The translations under genes and the position numbers were made by a program. Shown piece after piece: positions 14,110 to 16,120 of a stretch of 64,000 nt of DNA. How positions within the stretch are numbered: position 1 is the first letter of the stretch; each line of letters opens with the position of its first letter. The notes below the pieces were generated by a model. It was not told the DNA's origin, searched no databases, and was given only the letters and a program-made list of their open reading frames with translations. This DNA is from Natrinema marinum (lineage in GTDB: Archaea > Halobacteriota > Halobacteria > Halobacteriales > Natrialbaceae): positions 1,550,001 through 1,614,000 of the forward strand of contig NZ_CP100763.1 of the NCBI RefSeq assembly GCF_024296685.1, read 5' to 3'.

Positions 14110-14556
14110 TCAGGCGGTCGCGGTCGCCGCCCGTTCTGCCCGCGCCGCGATCGCCTCGTTCATCGCGACGAACGCCCGCTCTACGCGGGCGCGGTCGAAC
14201 ACCAGCGGGACGAGCGCGCCACGAACCGTCTCCCGCTGCAGCAGGCGCGTGCGCCGACCGTCCTCGATCGGCTCGAGGCGGAACTCGTGGTAACGATCGA
14301 GCGCGAAAGGGACGACGAACCGGTCGAGCCAGGCGAGCCGTCGGTCCGGCTCGACCGCGACCACCGACGACTCGACTGATCGACGGCCGCGACCGGGCGT
14401 CGGGCTCCAGCCCCGTCGGTCGTCGCGCCCGACGCTCACGCCCTCGACCGTCCGACCGATCGGGTCCCACTCCGGATACGCCTCGAACGATCGCAGGGCG
14501 TCCCAGACGACCGCGGGCGGCGCGTCGATCTCGACGAACACCTCGACTTCGTCCAT
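14110..14556 (-). CDS. SRPBCC (START-like) ligand-binding protein
   Basis: 148 aa from the ATG at 14556 (MDEVEVFVEIDAPPAVVWDA), the usual beginning of polyketide-cyclase/START-like proteins. An upstream in-frame ATG at 14619 adds 21 residues unlike the family. Visible features are FEAYPEWDPIGRTVEG, RLAWLDRFVVPFALDRYHEF and the C-terminal helix from about residue 118 (RARVERAFVAMNEA). The helix-grip fold binds hydrophobic ligands; no ligand is known. The gene is convergent with the HAD gene. Confidence 0.75.
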   Translation of the reverse strand: MDEVEVFVEIDAPPAVVWDALRSFEAYPEWDPIGRTVEGVSVGRDDRRGWSPTPGRGRRSVESSVVAVEPDRRLAWLDRFVVPFALDRYHEFRLEPIEDGRRTRLLQRETVRGALVPLVFDRARVERAFVAMNEAIAARAERAATATA

Positions 14557-14842
14557 GCGGTAATGCACGTCACGCGATAGCATGGCTATATCGGTCACCG
14601 GTCGCGACGGTCCGTGCATCGATCATTTCAGCGGAGCGCGCTGTCGTTGAACCGCCGGTTCATCGAGCCAGCGCGCCGCCGGTTCCTCCCGGAACTCACC
14701 ACTGAGGGGGCGGTGCACAGTCGGGAGAGGTTACGCGTTTCGGGCTCTTAACTCGAGGAAATAGGCGTGTGACTGCTATCGCCGCGTGATCGAAACCCGT
14801 CGGACCGCAACCCCCTTCTGCGACCGGCACTCAAAACCGCAC

Positions 14843-16120
14843 ATGGACGGATCGGATCGTGGACTCTCTCGGCGCGCGGTCGTCAGAAGCGCAGTCGCCA
14901 TCGGTGGCGCGAGCGCGCTTTCCGCCTGCCTCCAGCGCGAGGAACCCGAGGACGTCCCTCGGGCCACTCGCTCGCCCGACGAACTCCCCCGCCGCCAGCA
15001 CGCCTGGAACGAGTTCCTCTCGACGGACGATCACGGCAACGTCCGCCCGCCCGAACACCACCTCCTGCTCGGCCTCGAGTACGTCGGCGACGGCCCCGCC
15101 GACGCGGCCGCCGAGCGCGAGCAACTCGAGGCCGCGTTCCGGACGCTCGAGCGGGCCTACAAGCGCGGGAACGATGGGCTGGTGTTCGCGATGGGTTACG
15201 GCCCGGCGTACTTCGACCGGTTCGACGCCGATCTTCGGGGCGTCGACCTCCCCGACCCCGAAGCGCTCGCGCCGATCGAAGATCCCGAACTCGACGAGTA
15301 CGACGCCTTGCTCCACCTGGCCAGCGACTACGGCCACGTCACCCTGAGCGCGGAGGAGGCCCTGACGGGCGAACTCGAAGAACTGAACGGCCTCGAGGTA
15401 GCGGGAACGTTCGACGGCGTCTTCGAGGTCGGCGAGCGCCGGTCCGGCTTCATCGGTGCCGGGATGCCGGCCGAGCGCCAGTCCGGTGTCGGCGGCATTC
15501 CGGACAGCGATCCGGTCCCCGAAGACGCGCCGATGTTCATGGGCTTCAAGACCGGCTTCGAGCAAAATCAGGCGAGCGAGGACCGCGTGACGATCCCGGA
15601 GGGGCCGTTCGCCGGGGGAACGACGATCCACCTCTCGAAGATCCAACTGCACCTCCACCAGTGGTACGAACAGGACAGCCGCAGCCAGCGCGTCGCCAAG
15701 ATGTTCTCGCCGACCCACGCGGCGGACGACCTCGTCGAAGGGGTCGGCGAAAATCTCGGCGACTCGAGCGGGATCACCGAAATCTCCGGCAGTGCGGCCG
15801 AAGACGCTCGCAACGAGGGGACGGTCGGCCACGCCCAGAAGGCCGCCCGCGCCCGCGAGGACGGCGAGCCGATCCTCCTCCGGCGGGACTTCGATTCGAC
15901 CGACGACGACACGGCAAGTACCCACTTCCTCTCACTACAGCGCTCGATCGCCGACTTCGTGAAGACCCGCGAGGCGATGACTGGCTCCGATCTCACCGAC
16001 GGAGCCGTCGGCCCGCTGACGAACAACGGTATCCTCCAGTATCTCACCGTCCGCAACCGGGCGAACTACCTCGTTCCACCGCGAGGACTTCGATCCCTGC
16101 CCGCGCCGAACCCGCAGTAG
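14843..16120 (+). CDS. Tat-exported lipoprotein with degenerate DyP-type peroxidase fold (DUF7405-like)
   Basis: 425 aa from the ATG at 14843. A twin-arginine signal (SRRAVVRSAVAIGGASALSA) ends in a lipobox Cys (LSAC), so the protein is probably anchored outside the membrane. The C-terminal half has the order of a dye-decolorising peroxidase: GFKTG (234-238) where DyPs have GxxDG, a hydrophobic strand IHLSKIQLHLHQW, a proximal-type His330 (TVGHAQ), Arg347-Arg348 (LLRRDF) and STHFLSLQRSIADFV. The distal Asp of GxxDG is Thr237 here, so normal peroxide chemistry is doubtful. From memory such haloarchaeal proteins are labelled DUF7405. Heme binding is inference. Confidence 0.65.
   Translation: MDGSDRGLSRRAVVRSAVAIGGASALSACLQREEPEDVPRATRSPDELPRRQHAWNEFLSTDDHGNVRPPEHHLLLGLEYVGDGPADAAAEREQLEAAFRTLERAYKRGNDGLVFAMGYGPAYFDRFDADLRGVDLPDPEALAPIEDPELDEYDALLHLASDYGHVTLSAEEALTGELEELNGLEVAGTFDGVFEVGERRSGFIGAGMPAERQSGVGGIPDSDPVPEDAPMFMGFKTGFEQNQASEDRVTIPEGPFAGGTTIHLSKIQLHLHQWYEQDSRSQRVAKMFSPTHAADDLVEGVGENLGDSSGITEISGSAAEDARNEGTVGHAQKAARAREDGEPILLRRDFDSTDDDTASTHFLSLQRSIADFVKTREAMTGSDLTDGAVGPLTNNGILQYLTVRNRANYLVPPRGLRSLPAPNPQ

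Follow-up and report, generated by a model that had tools for sequence, protein, structure and literature searches.

Can a protein with the fold of a dye-decolorizing peroxidase (DyP), but lacking the distal aspartate of the GxxDG motif, still carry out heme chemistry, and what process would it serve? The question is raised by a gene in a 64,000-nucleotide stretch of Natrinema marinum DNA (the window), whose product a first-pass annotation took to be either an exported heme protein with changed chemistry or a heme/ligand sensor. The answer we favor, by a modest margin over even chances, is that the gene encodes a DyP-like heme protein that would use Arg347 for peroxide chemistry together with Asp349, and would play an EfeB-like part in iron handling alongside a DUF7350 lipoprotein.

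The gene and its export signal

The gene lies where it was first annotated, on the forward strand at 14843 to 16120, with an ATG at 14843, a stop codon ending at 16120, and a product of 425 amino acids; a family alignment favors this start over an upstream GTG at 14786. The motifs originally picked out are all present (GFKTG at residues 234-238, His330, Arg347-Arg348, and FLSLQRSIADFV at residues 362-373) and stand above chance, His330, Arg347, and Arg348 being invariant among 134 homologues. The predicted Tat signal and lipobox (14843 to 14929, forward strand) consist of twin arginines Arg10-Arg11 and the sequence LSAC with lipid-anchor Cys29, and both are kept across the family: Arg11 in 134/134 homologues, Arg10 and Cys29 in 131/134 each. 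Such a conserved twin-arginine signal is what would be expected of a Tat-exported DyP like EfeB. Directly upstream in the window is an SRPBCC gene (14110 to 14619, reverse strand); in several Natrinema relatives a ferritin-like gene sits between the two, and it is absent from positions 14620 to 14842 of the window.

A DyP fold in a catalogued family

The product matches the full Pfam profile DUF7405 (PF24152) over residues 70-413, with 534.8 bits against a cut-off of 27.1 (E 1.1e-160). Matches to DyP profiles are far weaker: Dyp_perox_C scores 18.7 against a cut-off of 20 in the window protein and exceeds the cut-off in several relatives, PF20628 gives 20-28 bits in many DUF7405 members, and no NCBIfam model matches the window protein. 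A phmmer search of the PDB with the single window protein returned chance matches only, and a DUF7405 family profile weakly reached DyPs.

An AlphaFold model built from 92 family sequences (mean pLDDT 90.4, pTM 0.90) replaced a poor one built from 20 (pLDDT 60.5), and the top 50 solved structures listed by VIA-align for it are all DyP or EfeB (Z 26.4-27.7), the best being EfeB 6jbn with Z 27.7, rmsd 3.3, and 317 aligned residues. Foldseek agrees, with E values down to 3e-15, and a profile of 12 bacterial DyPs, made from EfeB and YfeX of E. coli and from plasmid sequences, was matched by hhalign with a probability of 99.1 (E 5.6e-19; 338 columns, spanning both domains). The model has the predicted two-domain ferredoxin-like alpha+beta barrel of DyPs, as the first-pass annotation had anticipated from motif order, and on model and alignments together the DyP assignment is secure in terms of both fold and homology.

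The pocket residues

Realigned hhalign and MAFFT agree in placing Thr237 on EfeB Asp235, His330 on His329, Arg347 on Arg347, and Asp349 on Gly349, with Gly234-Gly238 falling on GxxDG, where a first whole-length hhalign run had put His330 one column off and non-realigned runs had left it unaligned. Specifically, i) His330 (15830 to 15832, forward strand, as for all residues given here) is placed by both methods on the proximal heme-ligand histidine, and its spacing of 17 residues from Arg347 is that of His215-Arg232 in YfeX; ii) Arg347 (15881 to 15883) is the predicted distal arginine, corresponding to the invariant arginine of the 12 DyPs and to KpDyP R232 and DtpB R243; iii) FLSLQRSIADFV (15926 to 15961) begins with Phe362, which aligns with the distal-pocket Phe248 of KpDyP; and iv) the GFKTG loop (15542 to 15556) is the equivalent of GxxDG, with Thr237 (ACC, 15551-15553) in place of the aspartate. 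Trp274, Lys333, and Phe362 are likewise invariant in 134/134. The Arg347-Arg348 pair had been annotated as a unit; both residues are indeed invariant, and the catalytic arginine would be Arg347, with Arg348 merely its neighbor. Heme binding by the protein is very probable.

The missing aspartate proves to be a property of the whole family rather than of the window protein. Position 237 is Ser in 117 homologues, Ala in 13, Thr in 2, Val in 1, and Asn in 1, and Asp or Glu in none of the 134. Threonine is therefore far from fixed among haloarchaeal homologues, a point that the first-pass annotation had raised, and on the alignment Thr237 is a conservative Ser-to-Thr change, local to the window's genus. 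Since the DyP fold, the proximal His, and the distal Arg are all found, and the GxxDG aspartate is not, we file the window protein as DUF7405, a relative within the DyP superfamily and not a canonical DyP. A plasmid-borne Streptomyces 'Dyp-type peroxidase' (L189:241-1152) has Glu for the GxxDG aspartate (FTEGF) and lacks the first Gly.

DUF7405 is an uncharacterised but already catalogued family. We found no paper naming it in the open literature searched and, by the terms tried, none on haloarchaeal DyPs. PGAP already labels plasmid homologues 'Dyp-type peroxidase (domain-containing) protein' or 'Tat pathway signal protein', and its annotations of the haloarchaeal relatives mention neither the missing aspartate nor an iron-binding partner.

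Is the aspartate needed, and has it moved?

The premise of the first-pass annotation, that DyP enzymes need the GxxDG aspartate for peroxide cleavage, was overstated. The D152A variant of Streptomyces lividans DtpB forms compound I at 1.7e5 per M per s, compared with 2.7e5 for wild type at pH 5 (PMC9638988), and it is the arginine that governs the rate of compound I formation in this enzyme (PMC9638988; PMC8463360); arginine is the key residue in both DyPB and DtpB, and is reported to be essential in DyPB (PMC8197335). KpDyP, on the other hand, loses about three orders of magnitude at pH 7 without its aspartate, yet its compound I is then more reactive (PMC6153280). It is still unsettled whether proton transfer in DyPs is the work of Asp or of Arg (PMC8463360), and a natural family that lacks the Asp in all members, has kept the Arg, and places an acid at another site of the predicted pocket offers a ready test.

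That acid is Asp349 (15887 to 15889), two residues beyond the distal arginine, where 114 of the 134 members have Asp and the rest His (14), Ser (5), or Thr (1), and where the 12 sampled DyPs have a small or neutral residue, never an acidic one. Because the Arg+2 position sits in the distal pocket of solved DyPs, where Ser234 of KpDyP is one of the residues lining the distal channel (PMC6153280) and Asn245 of DtpB makes a hydrogen bond to the ferryl oxygen (PMC8463360; PMC9638988), the alignment suggests Asp349 as a candidate replacement for the missing aspartate; its geometry relative to iron is taken from the alignment and from the structures of these other enzymes, our model being heme-free. 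A small clade of paralogues with Ser/Ser or Ser/Thr at positions 237 and 349 has no acid at either site, which counts against a moved acid. We set aside as strong support the covariation of the two positions, Ala or Val at 237 being always paired with His at 349 (14/14): these sequences form one clade in the tree, and so represent a single event that is suggestive only.

The principal alternative is that the loss of the aspartate matters little because Arg347 is enough to promote O-O cleavage, as the arginine does in DtpB and R. jostii DyPB, with Asp349 playing a structural part. The kinetics of the DtpB variant and the invariance of Arg347 fit such an arginine-dependent peroxidase well; it leaves unexplained, however, why an acid should be kept at 349 in 114/134 members when the 12 DyPs do without one, and we consider it rather unlikely. 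Changed chemistry, as the first-pass annotation proposed, is a plausible prediction for the window protein.

A genomic partner and an iron context

We sampled 296 genomes of the phylum, 72 of them from the window's order. Within this sample DUF7405 occurs only in the window's order, in 61 of the 72 genomes, and DUF7350 occurs in 59, which are exactly those with a DUF7405 of the main subfamily (59/59); the remaining 13 sampled haloarchaea have neither DUF7350 (0/13) nor a main-subfamily DUF7405. Two of the 13 (G133 and G152) have DUF7405 as divergent paralogues only, and 11 have neither family. The two genes are at most 5 kb apart in 43 genomes. Presence or absence of the pair varies within two genera, and co-occurrence therefore does not reflect shared ancestry alone.

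The DUF7350 partner is itself a Tat lipoprotein. The two sampled copies have an N-terminal Iron_transport domain (PF10634) and a C-terminal DUF7350 domain, PF10634 itself having been checked in these two partners and in the window genome, and PGAP labels genes neighboring DUF7405 'iron transporter'. PF10634 is the Pfam family named for P19 (PMC8238504). The company DUF7405 keeps is thus that expected in a P19-linked iron system. Other neighbors are a ferritin-like gene in Natrinema and a DUF892 gene in Haladaptatus, neither of which is found in the window. Against an iron partnership, DUF7350 is not adjacent to DUF7405 in the window's own genome, where the distances to its copies are 110 kb and 0.75 Mb.

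In bacteria, EfeB and P19 alike work with the permease FTR1. Considered as the permease partner here, FTR1 (PF03239) found no match in the window genome or in any sampled haloarchaeon, all 37 matches in the phylum lying outside the window's order; the FTR1-type permease EfeU of an EfeUOB system was thus not found in the window genome. No EfeO was seen in the annotations of seven homologue regions. Nor did a canonical DyP turn up in the phylum sample: the PF20628 matches listed are all weak, at no more than 28 bits, and those checked in the same genomes are DUF7405 itself. A multi-pass membrane protein of about 500 amino acids with no Pfam match was observed at 12 loci (among them L091:10475-11983 and L135:11708-13261), and in several genomes it occurs with a small DUF7410-like partner near DUF7405 and DUF7350; this conserved protein is a candidate for the missing transporter. 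The perfect co-occurrence with iron-binding lipoproteins suggests what two Pfam families without an assigned function may do, and is a pointer to an FTR1-independent iron route in haloarchaea.

A proposed role, and other readings of the pocket

We suggest that the DUF7405 protein is exported folded by the Tat pathway and held at the outer surface of the membrane by a lipid on Cys29; that heme b would be held in the C-terminal half of the DyP barrel through His330; that Arg347 would be used for the reaction with peroxide; that Asp349 would probably serve as an acid/base or hydrogen-bond partner, as the GxxDG aspartate does in ordinary DyPs, leaving just a small Ser or Thr at position 237; and that the protein would work with DUF7350/P19-type lipoproteins in acquisition of iron at the cell surface, or in iron detoxification, with no FTR1 permease. 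EfeB-like redox work in iron handling together with the DUF7350 lipoprotein is the most likely of the predicted roles. More tentatively, DUF7405 could be a distinct and mostly haloarchaeal class of DyP-like heme enzymes in which the catalytic acid has moved out of GxxDG to Arg+2 and the resulting triad is Ser/Thr-Arg-Asp, or Ala/Val-Arg-His in one clade, and which is dedicated to redox handling of P19/DUF7350-bound iron in cells without FTR1; we regard this as possible, with more doubt than confidence.

Two further readings give up the peroxidase activity. DUF7405 might bind heme without useful peroxidase activity, as a surface heme carrier, a heme-iron release protein, or a ligand sensor, and the absence of the defining acid, the export as a lipoprotein, and the coupling to iron-binding lipoproteins are all compatible with such a role. 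An invariant distal arginine and pocket phenylalanine would nonetheless be superfluous in a simple carrier, and we found neither a sensor or output domain nor a consistent signaling partner, the genomic link being to iron-binding lipoproteins; the sensor proposed in the first pass is thus unsupported, and this whole group of readings is improbable. That the barrel has lost heme altogether, its conserved His and Arg binding some other ligand or metal, is suggested by further near-invariant residues outside the DyP mechanism (H53, H72, H292, and E246) and is very improbable, as the invariant residues include exactly the heme positions of DyPs.

Comparison with known systems

Among the closest known systems are EfeB and the A-type (class I) DyPs, with which DUF7405 shares the full-length two-domain barrel, Tat export, the proximal His and distal Arg, and a genomic link to iron proteins; it differs from EfeB in lacking the GxxDG aspartate, in being a lipoprotein, and in having a P19/DUF7350 lipoprotein for partner, no FTR1 permease having been found in the sampled haloarchaea. 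The B-type (class P) enzymes DtpB, DyPB, KpDyP, and YfeX share the fold and a polar pocket residue at Arg+2, but retain the GxxDG aspartate and carry Asn or Ser at Arg+2; in DUF7405 the GxxDG position is Ser or Thr and Arg+2 is Asp. With the bacterial P19/FTR1 iron uptake systems (FetMP, Ftr) the sampled DUF7350 partners share the PF10634 domain; the bacterial gene sets described combine P19 with FTR1 and thioredoxin-like or FMN-binding proteins, whereas the constant companion in haloarchaea is a DyP-fold protein.

Unusual family members

A plasmid of Streptomyces sp. NBC_00503 carries a DUF7405 homologue (L174:7989-9065, 295 bits) with Ser at the GxxDG aspartate position and the His and Arg kept; it adjoins genes for a zinc-binding dehydrogenase and NAD(P)H-binding proteins, and its translation starts close to the domain, without a Tat signal or lipobox. 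DUF7405 is therefore confined neither to haloarchaea nor to export. Two congeneric genomes encode 615-residue paralogues (L160:4128-5972 and L161:4430-6274) that have about 130 extra C-terminal residues with no Pfam match and no Cys at the lipobox position. Finally, contig 53 of another genome (G059; loci L165 and L164) carries several DUF7405 copies and fragments, some of which contain stop codons; the pattern suggests that the gene has duplicated locally and that copies are decaying.
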